DNA of 49,901 nucleotides from Lachnospiraceae bacterium (lineage in GTDB: Bacteria; Bacillota; Clostridia; Lachnospirales; Lachnospiraceae). Below the pieces are notes generated by a model. That model had not been told where the DNA came from, searched no databases, and saw only the letters and a list, made by a program, of their open reading frames with translations. Each line of letters opens with the position of its first letter. The first letter of the stretch is position 1. This document shows positions 21,054-28,182 of the stretch, piece after piece. The stretch is taken from assembly GCA_022799355.1 (NCBI GenBank), contig JAAWOG010000021.1, positions 1-49,901 on the forward strand. Direction: 5' to 3'. The position numbers and the translations under genes were made by a program.

Positions 21054-21131
21054 TAAAAATTCAATCCTACATTCTTGGTTGCGAAAGTGAGAGCCCTGAT
21101 ATATACTTATGAACAGAGGGATGACAGAGAT

Positions 21132-24100
21132 ATGAGAGAGGTTATAGACAGAATTTCAGAAGGAAAATTTGAATATGACAGAGGCGGGCTGGAATTTTCC
21201 GAGAGCAGAATAGAGATCAGGATATCCGCGGGAGAGGACTGTGAGGGAAGTTTTACGCTGTCTGGGAAGCAGGGACATATCACAAAGGGATTTGTGTATG
21301 CTTCCGACGGCAGAATGGAATGTCTGACAAAGGAATTTTTGGGTACCTGTGAGGAGATCGGTTACAAATTTCACGGCAGGGGCATGGAAACCGGTGATGT
21401 GCTGCAGGGAAATTTTTATGTGGTCAGCAACCGGGGGGAATATGCGCTGCCTTTTGTGGTGATGGTATCCCGCCCTGCTGTTTCCGCCAGTCTGGGGGAT
21501 ATGAAAAACCTGTTTCATTTTGCGAATCTGGCAAAAAGCAACTGGGAGGAAGCGGTACAGCTTTTTTATGATCCCGGATTCGAGGTGCTCTTTGAGGGGA
21601 GCGACAGAAAGTATAAAAATCTGTATCGCGGGCTTTCGAAATATGACGGGAATGAAAGAAATGTGGAAGAGTTCCTGATTGCCATTCATAAAAAGCAGAA
21701 GATAAATTATATTATTGATGAGGATAAACTGCGGTTTGAGGATGTGGTGGACGGTATTGGACGCCATGAAGTGATCCTTACGAAGAACGGATGGGGCTAT
21801 ACCCATCTGCATGTGGAAGTAAAGGGGGCTTTTCTTTCCGTAGACAAGATACTTTTAAACGATGATGATTTTCTCGGGGACCGCTGTCTGTTTTACTACT
21901 ATGTGGATAAGGATAAGCTGCATAAAGGCATTAACTATGGCTGTCTGCGCTTTTACAACAGTTTTATGGAGACTTCCGTCCCTGTAGAAGTAAAAGTGGA
22001 GGACGAAGCGTATAAGCAGGGACAGCTTCTTCGGAAAAAGCAGGAATTGCTGGTCAGAATCATGGAGTATTACGGTGCTTTCCGGATGAAGAAGATCAGC
22101 ACAAGGACCTGGCTTTCCAAAAATTATGAGATTATGGAAAACTGGGTGGAGGCGGATGATGCCGATCCGGAGCCGAAGCTTTACAGAGCGCACCTTCTGA
22201 TCACGGAGGGCAGGGTGAATGAGGCGGGGATGGTGCTGGACCAGGCGCGGAACGCCATTATGCAGAGCAGGGATATGGATAACGCGGTGTGGTGTTATTA
22301 TCTGTATCTGAGTACATTGCGGGGAAAAGATGAACATTACGTCAATAAGATTGCGGAGGAGGTTGCCTCTTCTTATGAAAAGGAACCGGATAACTGGCGG
22401 CTTGGCTGGCTGCTTCTTTATCTTGCACCGGAATACGGCATGTCCTATGCGAAAAAATGGATGTTTATCAAAGAACAGTTCGAGCGCGGCTGCAACAGTC
22501 CGGTATTTTATATCGAAGCGCTTCTGCTGATCAAGGCGGAGCCTTCGTTGTTTATGGAACTGGGTGATTTTGAGATGCAGATGCTGCGCTATGCAGCAAA
22601 GCATGATCTGATGACAGATGAAATGATCATGCAGCTTCATTATCTTGTACCCAGAAAACAGGGCTGCGTGGAGGGGCTTTTAGCGGTGCTGAAAAAGAGC
22701 TATGAAAAGCGCCGGGATGAGGAGACGCTGCAAAATATCTGCACGCTGCTGATCAGAGGAAACAGGCGGGGAAAAGAAGAATTTCCCTGGTATGCCGCAG
22801 GGGTGGAGGCAAATTTAAGGATCACGAAATTATACGAGTATTTTATGTACAGTCTGGATATGGAAGAGCTGATCAGGCTGCCAAAAGTGATTTATATGTA
22901 CTTTGCCTACCACAATAATCTGGACTGGGAGAGAAGCGCCTATTTGTATGCTTCTTTGCTCAAAAACAGAGACGTCATGCCAGATCTGTATGAAAAGGAA
23001 TGGTACCATATTCAGGAATTTGTGGTACGGATGGTTCAAAAGGGGCTGATCGACCGTCATCTTGCCTACCTGTATAAAAAGGTGATTACGGGAGAGGTGA
23101 TGCTTGAGGAGGCGGGAGGAAAACTGGCGCCGCTGCTGTTTGCCACACAGATCAAAGTGGCGGATGAGAGGATGCGGAAGGTGATCCTGTTATATGCCCG
23201 GGAAGTGGAGGAAAAAAGCATTACCCTGACGGAAGGGCAGGCAATTGTGCCGATTTACGGAGAAGAGTACACGCTTTTGCTGGAAGATGGTGTGGGAAAC
23301 CGCTATGTGCCGGGGGAAGAGGTTTTGACAGAGCGGCTTTTTGTGGAGGATGAGCTTTTGCGGGAGGCACAGGAGCGGGATCTTGAGACCGTTTCGCTGC
23401 AGTTATATCTCTGCGGCGGGAATGCGGGGAATATTACCGATCAGAATATCAGGCGTTATGAAAGCCTTCTTGCCAGCGGGGAAGTGGCGCCGGATTATAA
23501 ACAGACCATGATTCCGGGGATGGCGCAGTTTTATTATGATAATGACAGAATGGAAGAACTGGATGCTTTTCTGGAGATGCTCTCCCCTTCCGTACTGGAT
23601 GCGGCGAGAAGAGGGGAGATGATGCGGTATCTGGTACTGCGGGAAAAGCTGGAAAAGGCGCTTGACTGGATACGGGAATACGGTGTCAACGGCGTGGAGC
23701 CGAAGATGCTTATGAGACTTTCTTCCAAAATCATACAGGCCTCTAACCAGGTGGAGGATAAAACGGTACTTTCCCTTTGTTACTACGCGTTTCAAAAGGG
23801 AAAGACGGATGTGGTAACGCTGGGATATCTGATGGAACATTATCAGGGAAATATAAAAAATCTGCGGGATATCTGGAAGGCGGCAGTCGAGAAAGGGATG
23901 GATGTACATAGTTTCAGCGAGAGAATATTGACGCAGATGTTATATTCCGGCTGTTTTGTGGGAGAGGTGGCGGAGATTTTTTCGGCGGCCATAGAACAGG
24001 ATGCGGATATTCCTCTGGAAAAAGCGTTTTTATCCCAGTGCTGTTATGATTATTTTGTCAAAGACAAGATGACGGAAGCCGTTATTTTTGAAGAACTGGA

Positions 24101-24698
24101 GCGGTTTATCCGGCTGGGTGAGCAGATGCAGAAGGTCTGTATGTTAGCGTATACCAGATACTATGCGGAAAACAGAAAGAAGCTTCACGGGGAGAGCAGG
24201 ACGATTCTGGAAAACTGTCTGTATCAGTTGGTGGAGGAAGGGGTTATGCTGCCCTATTTTCAGGAGTATATGGACATCTGTCCTTTTATGCGCCGTTTTT
24301 GTGATAAGACCGTATTAGAACACAGGACGGTTCCGGGGCGGAAATCATATCTGTATTATATGTTTGACCAGGAAGAAGGGGAAGACTATCATAAGACGGA
24401 GATGAAGGAAGTCTATGAGGGCGTATGCAGCAGTATGTTTGTGCTGTTTTTCGGGGAAAAGCTGCTTTATTATATTGTGGAAGAGTTTGAGGATGAATAT
24501 GGCTTTCATGAGGAGATCACCGGCAGCGGCAGCATTTCCCGGGGCGATATGGATGTGGATGTGCCGGGAAGCCGTTTTCATATACTGAATGATATTGTGA
24601 TAGCGGAGGCGCTGCAGGACTATAATACACTGGACAGTATGCTGCTGGAGTATGAGGAGACGGACGCCGTGCAGAGAGAGCTGTTTCGTATCAGGTGA
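21132..24698 (+). CDS. large beta-domain plus helical-repeat protein, DUF5717-like
   Basis: About 1188 aa from ATG 21132 (MREVIDRISEGKFEYD). The frame is open from TTG 21075, but the upstream 19 residues have no ribosome site. Residues about 1-310 are beta-rich and contain two similar modules: an EIRISAGEDCEGSFTLSG region followed by FHGRGMETGDVLQGNFYVVS, and a second VILTKNGWGYTHLHVEVKGAF block. They resemble Ig-like or carbohydrate-type sandwiches. The remaining ~870 residues are helical, with repeated short helix pairs of TPR/HEAT character (RAHLLITEGRVNEAGMVLDQ, and DLEEL-like pairs). There is no signal peptide, TM segment or catalytic motif. It matches my recollection of the Lachnospiraceae family DUF5717. 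It heads a four-gene cluster and is probably a scaffold. Function unknown. Confidence 0.8.
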   Translation: MREVIDRISEGKFEYDRGGLEFSESRIEIRISAGEDCEGSFTLSGKQGHITKGFVYASDGRMECLTKEFLGTCEEIGYKFHGRGMETGDVLQGNFYVVSNRGEYALPFVVMVSRPAVSASLGDMKNLFHFANLAKSNWEEAVQLFYDPGFEVLFEGSDRKYKNLYRGLSKYDGNERNVEEFLIAIHKKQKINYIIDEDKLRFEDVVDGIGRHEVILTKNGWGYTHLHVEVKGAFLSVDKILLNDDDFLGDRCLFYYYVDKDKLHKGINYGCLRFYNSFMETSVPVEVKVEDEAYKQGQLLRKKQELLVRIMEYYGAFRMKKISTRTWLSKNYEIMENWVEADDADPEPKLYRAHLLITEGRVNEAGMVLDQARNAIMQSRDMDNAVWCYYLYLSTLRGKDEHYVNKIAEEVASSYEKEPDNWRLGWLLLYLAPEYGMSYAKKWMFIKEQFERGCNSPVFYIEALLLIKAEPSLFMELGDFEMQMLRYAAKHDLMTDEMIMQLHYLVPRKQGCVEGLLAVLKKSYEKRRDEETLQNICTLLIRGNRRGKEEFPWYAAGVEANLRITKLYEYFMYSLDMEELIRLPKVIYMYFAYHNNLDWERSAYLYASLLKNRDVMPDLYEKEWYHIQEFVVRMVQKGLIDRHLAYLYKKVITGEVMLEEAGGKLAPLLFATQIKVADERMRKVILLYAREVEEKSITLTEGQAIVPIYGEEYTLLLEDGVGNRYVPGEEVLTERLFVEDELLREAQERDLETVSLQLYLCGGNAGNITDQNIRRYESLLASGEVAPDYKQTMIPGMAQFYYDNDRMEELDAFLEMLSPSVLDAARRGEMMRYLVLREKLEKALDWIREYGVNGVEPKMLMRLSSKIIQASNQVEDKTVLSLCYYAFQKGKTDVVTLGYLMEHYQGNIKNLRDIWKAAVEKGMDVHSFSERILTQMLYSGCFVGEVAEIFSAAIEQDADIPLEKAFLSQCCYDYFVKDKMTEAVIFEELERFIRLGEQMQKVCMLAYTRYYAENRKKLHGESRTILENCLYQLVEEGVMLPYFQEYMDICPFMRRFCDKTVLEHRTVPGRKSYLYYMFDQEEGEDYHKTEMKEVYEGVCSSMFVLFFGEKLLYYIVEEFEDEYGFHEEITGSGSISRGDMDVDVPGSRFHILNDIVIAEALQDYNTLDSMLLEYEETDAVQRELFRIR

Positions 24699-24752
24699 TA
24701 TGCCGGGGCGGCTGCCATGTAAAATTTAAGGGGAGAGAAGGAAAACCACAGG

Positions 24753-26087
24753 ATGCTGCTGGAAAAAAGTTTAGAGAAAAAGAACAATAAATATATGGTG
24801 GGATTTGACTTAGGGGACAGGGATGCCCAGATCAGCTATTGCAGTTTGCAACAGACAGAGGCGCAGTCCGTGCCCGCAGTTGCCGGAACCCAGCAATATA
24901 ATATTCCGACGGTACTATGGAAGCGCAGAAACATGAACCAGTGGTTTTTCGGCAGGGAAGCGCTCGGCATGGTGGATGCGGACGGCGGCCTGTTTATAGA
25001 AAATCTGTTCTCGGGGGCGGTAGAGGATAAAAAGACCATGATCGAGGGAACGGAGTATGATTATCTGACACTGCTCACGCTGTTTGTGAAGAAATGCTTT
25101 GGGTTGTTTTCGGCCATCGCGCCCCTTGATAAGATAGAAATTCTGATGTTTACCGCAGCGGAAGCTGACGATGGTGTCATTGAAGTGGTAAAAAAAATAG
25201 TGGATGCGCTGGGACTGAAAAATACAAAAGTTTTTTTTCAGAGCCATGAGGAGAGTTATTATTATTATCTTCTGCATCAGGTCCCGGAATTCAGAAAGGG
25301 AGGATCGGTCATTCTCGAGTTTGAGGAGACACTGAAATACTATCGGCTGGAATGGAACAGGCGGACAACACCGATCGTTTCCTATGTGGCAAAAGAGCGG
25401 TTTGCGGATTGTCCGCAGCCCTCCTGGGATGAGGATGCGGTCCAAAGAAGGCGGCAGATGGAAGAACTGGATCAGCAGGTGCTGGAAAAGGTGGTCAAAA
25501 TTTTTCAAAACAGAATGGTCACATCCGTTTTTCTGATCGGCAGCGGCTTTCAGATTGACTGGGCGGACAGAAGCCTGAAATATATCTGCCGCGGAAGAAG
25601 AGTGTTCAAAGGAAACAATCTTTACAGCAAGGGTGCGGCATACAGCGCCATGGAAAAGTTTTGTCCGACGAAAGAAGGAAGGGAACATATATTTCTGGGA
25701 GGAGAAAAGCTGAAAACCAACATTGGACTGCAGATCATGCGGGAGGGGCAGGAGGCCTATGTGGCGCTTTTGGATGCGGGGATAGACTGGTATGAGGGTT
25801 CCTGCGAGAAGGAATTTTACCTGGAATCCGGCAGAGGGTATCAGGTATCGCTGACGCCTCTGACCAATGTGTTTTTGGAGAAAGAGGCGGCGGGAAAGTA
25901 CCCGGTCCATTATGAGAAAGTGGAGCTTCCCGGTATGCCGGAGCGACCGGAGGGAGCGACCAGGCTGCGGATTGTTATGGAACTGAAAAGCCCGGAGATT
26001 CTGCATGTAAAAACGGTGGATCTGGGATTTGGCATGATATATCCCGCCTCGGGCAATGTCTGGGAGCAGGATATTATATTACGGTAA
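24753..26087 (+). CDS. Hsp70/actin-fold protein, DUF5716-like
   Basis: A 444-aa protein. The N-terminus has an actin/Hsp70 phosphate-1-like loop (MVGFDLGDRDAQISYC, about residues 15-30), there is a YYYYLLHQVPEFRKG helix, and about residue 257 shows an adenosine-site-like strand-loop VFLIGSGFQIDW. The phosphate-2 position (SVILEFEETLKYY) lacks the usual DxGxGT, so ATP hydrolysis may be weak or absent. The last ~110 residues form a separate beta domain (GLQIMREGQEAYVALLDAG). The Hsp70 peptide-binding domain is missing. It appears to correspond to DUF5716. It lies 54 bp after the large protein and 6 bp before the TPR gene. Possible roles are a nucleotide-dependent switch or a filament-like scaffold; neither is established. 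Confidence 0.75.
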   Translation: MLLEKSLEKKNNKYMVGFDLGDRDAQISYCSLQQTEAQSVPAVAGTQQYNIPTVLWKRRNMNQWFFGREALGMVDADGGLFIENLFSGAVEDKKTMIEGTEYDYLTLLTLFVKKCFGLFSAIAPLDKIEILMFTAAEADDGVIEVVKKIVDALGLKNTKVFFQSHEESYYYYLLHQVPEFRKGGSVILEFEETLKYYRLEWNRRTTPIVSYVAKERFADCPQPSWDEDAVQRRRQMEELDQQVLEKVVKIFQNRMVTSVFLIGSGFQIDWADRSLKYICRGRRVFKGNNLYSKGAAYSAMEKFCPTKEGREHIFLGGEKLKTNIGLQIMREGQEAYVALLDAGIDWYEGSCEKEFYLESGRGYQVSLTPLTNVFLEKEAAGKYPVHYEKVELPGMPERPEGATRLRIVMELKSPEILHVKTVDLGFGMIYPASGNVWEQDIILR

Positions 26088-26093
26088 GAGAGT

Positions 26094-26927
26094 GTGGATA
26101 TGGGCAGATTAACGGAACCGGTAGGGAGGTACGCGGAGCATCCCTACTATATAGCGCAGACGGATACATCGGTATATTGTGTGGAGGAACTCTGTTTTAC
26201 ATTGTGTCAGAATACATTTCTGCTGGACAGAGGGCTGCTTGATTTGAAGCTGGCAAAATGGCTGGATGAGGAATGCGGTCTGCGGGAGCTGGCAAGGCCC
26301 CTTTACGGTTTGATCAATCAGAATGGTTCTCCGAGTGCGTTTGTGGGGATTATTCTTGAGTATACGCATTATGGCACGGAAAAGAAAAGGCAGGAAACGG
26401 AAGAACTTTTGCGGATAGGCGCAGATATGGACGTATCCACAAGAAGGAAACATTTTGCGGATTATCTGGTCGGAAACGGGCGCTATGCACAGGCGGTCAT
26501 GGAGTATGAGAAAGTGCTCGAAGAGATTCCCTCCATGAATTATGTGATGCGTTCGGAACTGCTTCATAATAAGGGGGTGGCTCTTTGCCGGCTGTTTTCA
26601 TTTGCGGAGGCGGCGGAGGCATTTCTGCTGGCATATCAGGAAAATCCGGCCTTTGAGGAAGCCGCCCTCAGTTACCTTGCGGCGCTGCGCATGACGGTTT
26701 CGGAGGAGGAGTATATCACTTTTATAGCCGAGCATCCCATGTGGCATGAACAGTCCCTGGAAGTGGAAAAACGGCTGGAAAAAAGCAGAATAGACTATGA
26801 AAATTCCGAGGAGTATAAAAAGCTGACCGGGGTTTTGGAACGCCGGGACACGGAATATTATAAGGCGGTATCGGAAAAACTGACACAGATGCAAAGAGAT
26901 TACAGGAAGATGGTGGAACAGTCTTGA
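26094..26927 (+). CDS. TPR-containing protein of the same cluster
   Basis: A 277-aa protein from GTG 26094 or ATG 26100 (MGRLTEPVGRYAEHP). Residues about 125-215 hold two to three TPR-like helix pairs (DYLVGNGRYAQAVMEYEKVL, then GVALCRLFSFAEAAEAFLLA with NPAFEEAALSYLAAL). The C-terminal 50 residues are a charged coiled coil. The N-terminal 120 residues are not recognised. The gene overlaps the next start by 4 bases (TTGA), implying translational coupling and a fixed stoichiometry with the coiled-coil membrane protein. It is probably an adaptor between the Hsp70-like protein and the membrane component. It has no known name. Confidence 0.75.
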   Translation: MDMGRLTEPVGRYAEHPYYIAQTDTSVYCVEELCFTLCQNTFLLDRGLLDLKLAKWLDEECGLRELARPLYGLINQNGSPSAFVGIILEYTHYGTEKKRQETEELLRIGADMDVSTRRKHFADYLVGNGRYAQAVMEYEKVLEEIPSMNYVMRSELLHNKGVALCRLFSFAEAAEAFLLAYQENPAFEEAALSYLAALRMTVSEEEYITFIAEHPMWHEQSLEVEKRLEKSRIDYENSEEYKKLTGVLERRDTEYYKAVSEKLTQMQRDYRKMVEQS

Positions 26928-28147
26928 ATGTATTGAAAAGATTTTGGAACAGAATATTCGGAAGAAAAAAAACGGCGGATATCCCCTATGTGACGGATGA
27001 GGGGACGGAGCGCACCGTGCCCGTGTTTCACCGGGATCATATCAATATTCACAACAGGCAGGAGCGGGAACAGTATCTCAGAAGCGTGCTGGAGCAGATC
27101 GCGGACGCGGAGCGGGAGATACACCATCTGGAATACGAATACAATATGGTCACTTCCCATCTCACGGATATCGAAGAACTGGAGCGGCTGCCGGATATGA
27201 TGAAGATAGAGATCCGGGAGATAGCGGAAAAGCTTTATGCCCTGGAAAAGACACAGACGGGCTATCGGGAAAAGAAAAACCGGATATCGGAGGCGGATTT
27301 TTCCAGGATGGAACAGCTTGAGGAGGATGCGGAGGATGGCATCCGGAAGCTGAAAGAGGCGGAGGATTATCATAAACTGGTAAAAAGCGATATGCGCAGG
27401 TTAAACGGCGAGCGTCATGCCTATGAATACCGGCAGGAGGAACTGGAACTGGAGCTGAAAAATGCGTCCGGTATCGCGGTGATCTGTTTTATTGCGCTGG
27501 TGGCATGTTTAATCGTTTTGTTTGCACTGCAGGTGGCGCTGCGCTTTGACACGAAGCTGGGATATGTGCTTGTGATCTGTATCGCGGCGGCGGTGATCCT
27601 GAAGCTTTATCTGAAACACGGAGATGCGGGGCGGGAGATTGTCCGGGTGGAGAGAGATATCAATCGGCTGATTCTGCTGCAGAATACCGTGAAGATTCGT
27701 TATGTCAATAATAAAAACCTGCTGGATTATCTGTGCCTGAAATTCCATGTGAGAAAAGCGGCGGAACTTGAAGCGCTCTGGGAGAAGTACAAAGAGGAAA
27801 AGACGGAACGGGAGCAGATGGAACTGGCTTCTAAGGACTATGAATATTATCAGAAAGAATTTTTGAGACTGCTGCGGCAGTCCCGCATCCGGGATACCAG
27901 CGTCTGGCTTCATCAGATGGGGGCTCTTTTGCGTGAGAGAGAGATGGTGGCACTGCGCCAGGGGCTTGTGGGGCGCAGAAAGGCACTTAGGGAGCAGATG
28001 GATTATAACCGGGAACTGGCAGCGGCGGCTCAGAGGGAAGTGACGGATATCAGCGGGAAGTATCCGAAGTATAAAGGGGAGATACTGACGCTGATCTCGG
28101 AGTATGAGAAAAAGCAGAAGACGGTAGGGGCCGTCAGAAGGAGATAA
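26924..28147 (+). CDS. coiled-coil protein with a central two-TM hairpin
   Basis: A 407-aa protein starting at TTG 26924, overlapping the TPR stop. Residues about 45-180 are a long charged coiled coil (AEREIHHLEYEYNMV, then MEQLEEDAEDGIRKLKEAED). Two hydrophobic segments follow at about 183-203 (IAVICFIALVACLIVLFAL) and 211-228 (YVLVICIAAAVILKLYL), separated by only a few residues. A second coiled coil covers about 235-400. Both long arms should lie in the cytoplasm with a short external hairpin, so the protein could anchor a cytosolic assembly to the membrane. No family is recognised. It is last in the four-gene cluster; a palindrome overlaps its stop codon. Confidence 0.8.
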   Translation: MNVLKRFWNRIFGRKKTADIPYVTDEGTERTVPVFHRDHINIHNRQEREQYLRSVLEQIADAEREIHHLEYEYNMVTSHLTDIEELERLPDMMKIEIREIAEKLYALEKTQTGYREKKNRISEADFSRMEQLEEDAEDGIRKLKEAEDYHKLVKSDMRRLNGERHAYEYRQEELELELKNASGIAVICFIALVACLIVLFALQVALRFDTKLGYVLVICIAAAVILKLYLKHGDAGREIVRVERDINRLILLQNTVKIRYVNNKNLLDYLCLKFHVRKAAELEALWEKYKEEKTEREQMELASKDYEYYQKEFLRLLRQSRIRDTSVWLHQMGALLREREMVALRQGLVGRRKALREQMDYNRELAAAAQREVTDISGKYPKYKGEILTLISEYEKKQKTVGAVRRR

Positions 28148-28166
28148 ACTGTGTTGACAGTTTATC
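28143..28166. repeat. inverted repeat over the amino acid ABC promoter
   Basis: GATAAACTGT and ACAGTTTATC flank GTTG, a perfect 10-bp inverted repeat that overlaps the -35 box. A third copy of GATAAACTG occurs at 28199-28207, downstream of the -10. Together these suggest a regulator-binding array; no T-run follows, so it is not a terminator. Confidence 0.6.
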
Positions 28167-28182
28167 CGTGGTGTGATACGAT
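28154..28182 (+). promoter_or_regulatory. putative sigma-A promoter of the amino acid ABC operon
   Basis: TTGACA (28154-28159) and TACGAT (28177-28182), 17-bp spacer. The leader of about 110 nt can fold a stem between GCATGGCGG and CCGTTATGC (about 28231-28268). Confidence 0.65.

Follow-up and report, generated by a model that had tools for sequence, protein, structure and literature searches.

Four adjacent genes of a Lachnospiraceae bacterium, at 21132-28147 of the 49,901-nucleotide stretch analyzed here (the window; GenBank assembly GCA_022799355.1, contig JAAWOG010000021.1), make up a cassette that, on balance, we take to encode an ATP-independent, Hsp70-derived client-holding complex, sometimes tethered to the membrane and left over from an operon with 4 Hsp70 genes. 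An earlier, sequence-only reading of this DNA had treated the 4 genes as one unit, and the frames, with gaps of 54 bp between genes 1 and 2 and 6 bp between genes 2 and 3 and a 4-base overlap of genes 3 and 4, confirm it. What that reading did not see is that the cassette appears, on sequence grounds, to be the remnant of a chaperone operon with 4 Hsp70s and a GrpE-like protein. The genes are:

21132-24698, + strand: gene 1, the DUF5717 giant, 1188 aa from the ATG, with a longer TTG start at 21075.
24753-26087, + strand: gene 2, the DUF5716 pseudo-Hsp70, 444 aa (PF18980, AlphaFold2, Foldseek, and tree).
26094-26927, + strand: gene 3, the TPR adaptor, 277 aa, GTG start (weak TPR in Pfam).
26924-28147, + strand: gene 4, coiled coil, 2 transmembrane helices, coiled coil, 407 aa, TTG start (hydropathy).

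Genes 1 and 2 are strong members of the families to which they had been provisionally assigned, with Pfam matches far above the cut-offs: in gene 1, PF18984 (DUF5717_N) covers residues 1-872 (961.6 bits, E 4e-289; cut-off 25) and PF18983 (DUF5717) covers residues 876-1185 (289.1 bits, E 5e-86; cut-off 25), while gene 2 matches PF18980 (DUF5716_C; 276.8 bits, E 2e-82; cut-off 34.7). Pfam lists both as families of unknown function. For gene 3, Pfam gives weak TPR matches alone, and for gene 4 it gives no family above cut-off; the NCBIfam scan of the cassette yielded no match above cut-offs. It is the structure of gene 2 that connects the cassette with chaperones. In a Foldseek search with its AlphaFold2 model (predicted local distance difference test score [pLDDT] of 67; residues 359-391 below 50), DnaK 2v7y is the best match (E 2e-16), other Hsp70s are at the top, and the template modelling score is ~0.4 over both domains. 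The fold is thus shared with Hsp70/DnaK (PF00012), but gene 2 lacks the catalytic residues, a stretch of about 70 residues, the lid, and any PF00012 match: no PF00012 row was found for it at E up to 1, and it falls outside the 4 PF00012 places of its own genome.

The key to interpreting this protein lies in other families of the same order, where an operon of 8-9 genes runs A - B - Hsp70-1 - X - Hsp70-2 - Hsp70-3 - Hsp70-4 - TPR - coiled-coil/transmembrane:

A: ~390 aa, the first third of DUF5717.
B: ~900 aa, the remainder of DUF5717; in G679, G758, and G835 a single frame spans A and B.
Hsp70-1: ~559 aa.
X (GrpE-like): mostly 560-650 aa; 279 aa in G647.
Hsp70-2: 470-545 aa.
Hsp70-3: ~546 aa.
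Hsp70-4 (Hsp70 + VWA): ~690 aa.
TPR protein: ~387 aa.
Coiled-coil gene: found, outside the window's family, in G647, G650, G758, G835, and L123.

Nine of the 13 extended loci are complete from A/B to TPR (G647, G650, G666, G679, G685, G723, G758, G835, and G874), where the completeness of G650, G758, and G835 counts an Hsp70-3 seen as search matches, and where Hsp70-4 and TPR of G647 are each split over 2 frames; in the other 4 (G660, G675, G696, and G821) the operon is cut or partial. A GrpE domain stands at the C-terminus of X in 13 of 13 rows, after a long N-terminal extension. Past the adenosine motif, Hsp70-1, -2, and -3 continue for 170-206 residues, versus 317 in the DnaK of the window's genome, and hence lack a lid; Hsp70-2 and Hsp70-3 each give matches to PF00012 and PF18980. 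Hsp70-4 closes with a VWA domain (Pfam), and a motif resembling the VWA metal site, DTTGSM, is present in all 6 Hsp70-4 rows shown; the strict metal-site pattern [DE]xSxS occurs in 0 of 21 Hsp70-4 rows. The protein at L066:4790-6862, an Hsp70 with VWA where the lid belongs, has an architecture that merits study of its own. No DnaJ match was found by Pfam in the 4 window proteins or the 9 operon components of the relatives, and a scan of 4 loci for the HPD motif of a hidden J domain gave only 2 ValS frames and 1 Hsp70-3, taken as chance.

The scan for Hsp70-1 matches needed exact peptide patterns and is no census, so that its figures apply among the matches listed. On that basis, strong matches have 59-82% identity (L109-L126) and the next ones 35% or less, and the strong ones come from records labelled Defluviitaleaceae, Eubacteriaceae, or unclassified Clostridia or Clostridiales metagenome-assembled genomes (MAGs). 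The large operon was met only within one order, among the matches listed and in samples of 291 genomes of the class and 368 of the phylum. Two sets of loci deserve mention in their own right. In the MAG loci L071, L072, and L073, unrelated frames lie between the Hsp70 paralogues, as if the operon had gathered insertions. In archaea and Bacillota, a GrpE (L129) or a weakly X-like gene (L131 and L140) directly precedes a lone Hsp70; the layout is similar in L132, L135, L139, and L141, where a small unassigned gene may precede the lone Hsp70, and a third gene often follows.

Aligned with these paralogues and with the DnaK of its own genome, gene 2, judged by the features tested, is a pseudo-Hsp70: not an active Hsp70, yet Hsp70-derived. 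The comparison draws on 68 loci with the short cassette, 67 from Lachnospiraceae and one (L077) from G800 of another family; 66 supply pseudo-Hsp70 rows, 2 fusions (>480 aa) being left out. Outgroup Hsp70 rows were kept if longer than 440 aa and above 55, 27, 45, and 50% identity to the G666 proteins (Hsp70-1, -2, -3, and -4, respectively), with the Hsp70-2 of G647, G758, and G835 added separately, outside this selection; some rows duplicate one another exactly or nearly (L111 and G874; L109, L110, and G723). The catalytic lysine (K70) is kept in 28 of 28 Hsp70-1, 19 of 19 Hsp70-3, and 20 of 21 Hsp70-4 rows, the single exception fitting the split gene of G647, and it is present in 0 of 24 Hsp70-2 and 0 of 66 short-cassette proteins. 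The DxGGGTFD motif follows the same pattern, and the phosphate-1 threonines, the glutamate, and GGGT are conserved in Hsp70-1, -3, and -4. Hsp70-2 has the E171 glutamate in 4 of 24 rows and the phosphate-2 threonine in none of 24; for the short-cassette proteins the counts are 0/66 and 3/66, with the 2 phosphate-1 threonines at 0/66 and 4/66.

Two intervals complete the picture. From the phosphate-2 to the adenosine motif there are 143 residues in the genome's own DnaK, 134-152 in the 24 Hsp70-2 rows (139 in G647; 134 in G758 and G835), and 59-78 in the 66 short-cassette rows; the latter 2 ranges are disjoint, and about 70 residues are gone from gene 2 and its relatives. In DnaK this interval includes subdomain IIB, a GrpE contact. 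After the adenosine motif, gene 2 has 182 residues, and the 66 short-cassette rows, without exception, have 168-185. The sequence-only reading had called gene 2 an actin/Hsp70-fold protein without a substrate domain; Foldseek bears out the fold, but the second half of the description is doubtful, since the C-terminal segment matches in length the one that a canonical paralogue carrying a beta substrate domain has (179-186 residues), and only the lid is missing.

The tree (14 short-cassette rows, drawn as 13-14 of the 66 plus gene 2; midpoint root) puts the short-cassette proteins inside Hsp70-2, as sister to the Hsp70-2 of G647 with 97 percent support in the Shimodaira-Hasegawa-like approximate likelihood ratio test. 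By these alignments and this tree, gene 2 is the ortholog of Hsp70-2, the degenerate paralogue of the large operon. G647 has the whole operon, including the GrpE-like gene of 279 aa. Because the proteins of the family fall next to those of G647 and of G758/G835, which have the long operon, the longer version probably came first, although this is not firm. What the analysis adds to the Pfam entries is the split of DUF5717 into A and B, the operon setting, and the descent from Hsp70.

If the long form came first, the window's family has lost much of it. Hsp70-1 was found in 0 of 200 family genomes at a limit of E 1e-130; in a control of 18 genomes, 13 passed this limit, all of other families, and only DnaK-level matches were returned by 3 genomes of the window's family, G172, and G800. 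The large X was likewise found in 0 of 200, and 2 genomes match it, over its C-terminal part only, in frames of 245 and 220 aa, which is ordinary GrpE size. Nine of the 15 control genomes for X were positive, the negatives being G000, G594, and G397 of the window's family and G172, G800, and G658 of others, of which G658 has a single DUF5716 match. Wider sampling gave 0 of 291 genomes across the class for Hsp70-1 and 0 of 368 across the phylum for X, in samples that contain few members of the order's other families and say little on those. At the 68 short loci there was no match to Hsp70-1 or Hsp70-4, and what matches Hsp70-3 in them is the pseudo-Hsp70 itself. By PF00012, the genome of the window has one full Hsp70, 2 frames of 351 and 365 aa, and one match below cut-off, and 11 further family genomes each have a full DnaK-sized match. 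Extra Hsp70 frames of 503-638 aa lie on G222:C7, G397:C8 and C12, G546:C2 (with an internal stop), and G580:C10 and C23; none in the 11 genomes reaches the 690+ aa of Hsp70-4. The same search of G647, as a comparison, recovers the Hsp70s of the operon.

What remains is kept with great consistency. DUF5717_N occurs in 5 of 398 genomes sampled across the phylum, all 5 in the window's family, and within that family in 245 of 250 genomes (200 of the 202 better ones), mostly as one match each; the reduced genomes G611 and G565 (1.5-1.6 Mb) retain it. DUF5716_C reaches wider, to 117 of 246 genomes of the order, with 2 matches in most of the other-family genomes listed; at loci fetched from other families, such pairs are adjacent frames of ~500-550 aa. 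At all 68 loci the Hsp70-like gene comes next after the giant, and each of them also has the TPR part, as a separate gene in 66 (that of L194 located by six-frame search) and fused to the Hsp70-like gene in 2 (L217, 709 aa; L237, 723 aa). Given DUF5717_N in 245 of 250 genomes and a gene order kept in relatives, the four-gene arrangement is not a chance observation; the order holds beyond close relatives, through the operon shared with the order's other families. Divergence of sequence is considerable, the 66 rows having 22-69% identity to gene 2 (median, 27). The gene valS lies inside the fetched stretch in 15 of 68 short loci and 3 of 13 loci of other families.

The membrane protein is a different matter. 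A coiled-coil gene could be identified at 44 of the 68 loci; six-frame searching of the remaining 24, with E as high as 10, gave none, and the frames after the TPR gene read as unrelated (none is listed for L210). The core is thus 3 genes, with the membrane gene as an optional fourth. The coiled-coil protein with 2 transmembrane segments described from sequence stands, on hydropathy, but it is not a constant part of the cassette, and a membrane machine as its core is not supported, since 24 of 68 loci have no anchor.

Three observations concern where the short form is found. G800, of family f147 (86% complete, 5% contaminated), has at L077 a cassette like those of the window's family, and the other f147 genomes listed, G651 and G671, lack any match to DUF5716; either contamination or transfer would account for it. 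Neither the plasmid search nor the viral_contigs search, the latter with exact peptide patterns only, returned a match to the cassette. Four records labelled "Bacteriophage sp." do match it, and the 2 that were inspected, L243 (MT835486.1) and L244 (MT835719.1, in which the giant is cut), resemble bacterial chromosome: the cassette adjoins valS in L243 and a frame reading like glutamyl-tRNA synthetase in L244. Phage carriage was rejected on this account, as both look like mislabelled bacterial chromosome.

The layout of gene 1 is 2 Ig/PapD-like beta-sandwiches, a long helical TPR-like region, and DUF5717_C. When gene 1 was aligned over its full length with A and B proteins encoded apart, MAFFT put the A rows in the wrong place, and the model was restricted to residues 1-320, aligned with 8 A proteins. 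AlphaFold2 gives this segment a pLDDT of 79 and 2 beta blocks flanking a helical segment (all together ~residues 20-290), for which Foldseek returns Ig, PapD-like, and ASH-type folds (the HYDIN PapD-like domain at a template modelling score, TMt, of 0.64 over 105 columns), with ciliary central-apparatus chains among the matches. The remainder is TPR-like (E 1e-11 versus consensus TPR proteins, summed from weak repeated stretches; 69 percent probability and E 4e-5 versus the TPR adaptor in hhalign). That gene 3 is a TPR-type adaptor is upheld by its own weak Pfam matches and the clear TPR matches of its relative in G666; it also has a conserved N-terminal segment outside the TPR, and relatives align over this N-terminal motif. 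In gene 4, 2 hydrophobic helices start near residues 184 and 212 (hydropathy), and the coiled coils were judged by reading the sequence, with no predictor.

In the window's family, scaffold genes A and B are thus fused into one, Hsp70-1 and the GrpE-like factor were not found, and Hsp70-3 and Hsp70-4 did not turn up in the smaller set of genomes where they were sought; the survivors are Hsp70-2, already degenerate, its TPR companion and, at some loci, the coiled-coil membrane protein. The surviving Hsp70 has lost its ATPase residues together with about 70 residues near the exchange-factor-binding subdomain. From these parts we propose that it may act as a fixed clamp that needs no cycle of ATP hydrolysis. 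Genes 1-3 would encode one complex, in which gene 3 may bridge the pseudo-Hsp70 and the giant; gene 2 would hold a client or partner segment through its substrate-domain-like end, so that its beta domain and the Ig/TPR giant could hold or present protein clients. Where present, the gene 4 protein may tether the complex to the cytosolic side of the membrane. The 2 pseudo-Hsp70-TPR fusions and the retention of the cassette in 245 of 250 family genomes, including reduced ones, support this proposal.

Several points weigh against it. Client binding is something we infer, and the gene 2 model behind it is of middling confidence (pLDDT 67). Degenerate motifs leave nucleotide binding possible, as in some Hsp70s. 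Our assignment of the missing stretch to subdomain IIB, and of GrpE binding to IIB, relies on general knowledge of DnaK combined with the alignment. The loss of Hsp70-3 and Hsp70-4 rests on fewer genomes than that of Hsp70-1 and X, and 4 of the 11 family genomes have the extra Hsp70 frames, of which the 503-aa frame of G397 may be an Hsp70-3. In the tree, long branches lead to the family and are marked as possible long-branch joins, and rooting was at the midpoint. In G648, G655, and G753, Hsp70-1 lies on a different contig from Hsp70-2 or X, so the operon is not intact everywhere. Finally, the fast divergence of the rows could suit a conflict system no less than a scaffold.

One alternative is a static structural scaffold, close to the one suggested from sequence, in which the Ig/TPR giant and an Hsp70-shaped spacer organize other proteins, in some genomes at the membrane, without any remaining chaperone or client-holding activity. 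The loss of the ATPase residues, the tandem Ig/ASH-type domains and TPR-like solenoid of the giant, its matches to ciliary central-apparatus chains (gene 2 also matches 7sqc_Z0 of that apparatus), and the two-transmembrane coiled-coil gene at 44 of 68 loci all suit this idea. A C-terminus of substrate-domain length in all 66 rows is unexpected for a mere spacer, and the anchor is absent from 24 of 68 loci; we regard a pure scaffold as rather unlikely. Known actin-like filaments are nucleotide-driven, and it is at this point that a membrane-attached filament of the MreB, ParM, or FtsA type, serving cell shape or envelope, becomes highly improbable: the actin/Hsp70 superfamily fold and a membrane-bound coiled-coil neighbor do speak for it, but gene 2 is the Hsp70-2 ortholog, its top structural matches are Hsp70s, and its nucleotide residues are lost. 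The filament entertained by the sequence-only reading is therefore unlikely, and a nucleotide-driven one is not supported for that last reason. On the envelope organization or secretion that the same reading suggested, the analysis turned up evidence on neither side.

Among degenerate Hsp70s, Ssz1 is a fixed subunit of a co-chaperone complex of eukaryotes, the ribosome-associated complex (RAC), and the Foldseek list of gene 2 includes the RAC entries 6sr6, 5mb9, and 7x3k (Ssz1). The likeness would be one of logic, an inactive Hsp70 as a fixed subunit; the partners differ from those of RAC (Ssz1-Zuotin), and no J-domain partner was found in the cassette or the operon components scanned. Among published kinds found, the GTPase-centric GAP1-N2 conflict systems come nearest through their HSP70/GrpE theme: in Kaur et al. 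2020 (PMC7159879), this second theme comprises HSP70, GrpE, a reduced second HSP70, and FNIII proteins with a fused DnaJ or TPR. Genes for an HSP70, a GrpE, another HSP70 of reduced size, and beta-sandwich repeats with TPR are shared, and the large operon has similar components (Hsp70s, a GrpE-like protein, beta-sandwich/TPR, and VWA), while the rapid divergence noted above would not surprise in a defense system related to these. Nonetheless we consider such a system improbable. No GTPase or GAP1 match was found by Pfam in the 4 cassette proteins, the 9 operon components, or the 10 window neighbors; the large operon is also without a DnaJ match, has 4 Hsp70s, and is confined to one order among the matches listed. 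PADLOC gave a single match, at noise level (E 0.15). Of 250 family genomes, 245 have the cassette, as a rule with a single match, and reduced genomes retain it; valS nearby in 15 of 68 and 3 of 13 loci fits vertical inheritance, at least there. As for other literature, the open-access search returned no function for DUF5716 or DUF5717, in agreement with the sequence-only reading, and no description of the large operon; in the available part of PMC11019930, on DnaK paralogues, the terms "Lachnospir" and "Clostridia" are absent.

The surroundings of the cassette are ordinary. Of 10 flanking genes scanned with Pfam, 8 have a family, all commonplace: upstream lie ROK, GAF-GGDEF, and ABC ATPase genes, and downstream are the genes of an ABC transporter (for its solute-binding protein, its permease, and its ATPase), as well as SAICAR synthetase and a glutamine amidotransferase that reads as purF-like. 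The promoter and terminator scan gave 21 and 12 sites, respectively, versus shuffle means of 10.4 and 5.9, none of them decisive. Immediately after gene 4, at 28143-28182, is an inverted repeat, GATAAACTG..CAGTTTATC, which overlaps a promoter-like TTGACA-17-TACGAT ahead of the ABC transporter.

To return to the client-holding complex, a bolder version of it has, in our estimate, about an even chance: that the cassette is a family-wide, possibly essential, ATP-free relic, that the ancestral operon is an undescribed Hsp70 relay, and that its collapse to one inactive Hsp70 coincided with the disappearance of the exchange factor and of its presumed docking subdomain. The ancestral relay would comprise 4 lidless Hsp70s, one with VWA in place of the lid, and a GrpE-like factor with a large N-terminal extension. 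Lachnospiraceae are major gut anaerobes, and through the link to the four-Hsp70 operon an anonymous DUF pair, near-universal in this family, becomes a concrete and testable hypothesis. It would provide a natural case in which ATPase residues, an exchange-factor gene, and part of a nucleotide-binding domain vanish together, and its near-universal retention means that the cassette probably does something basic, not yet described, for the family.

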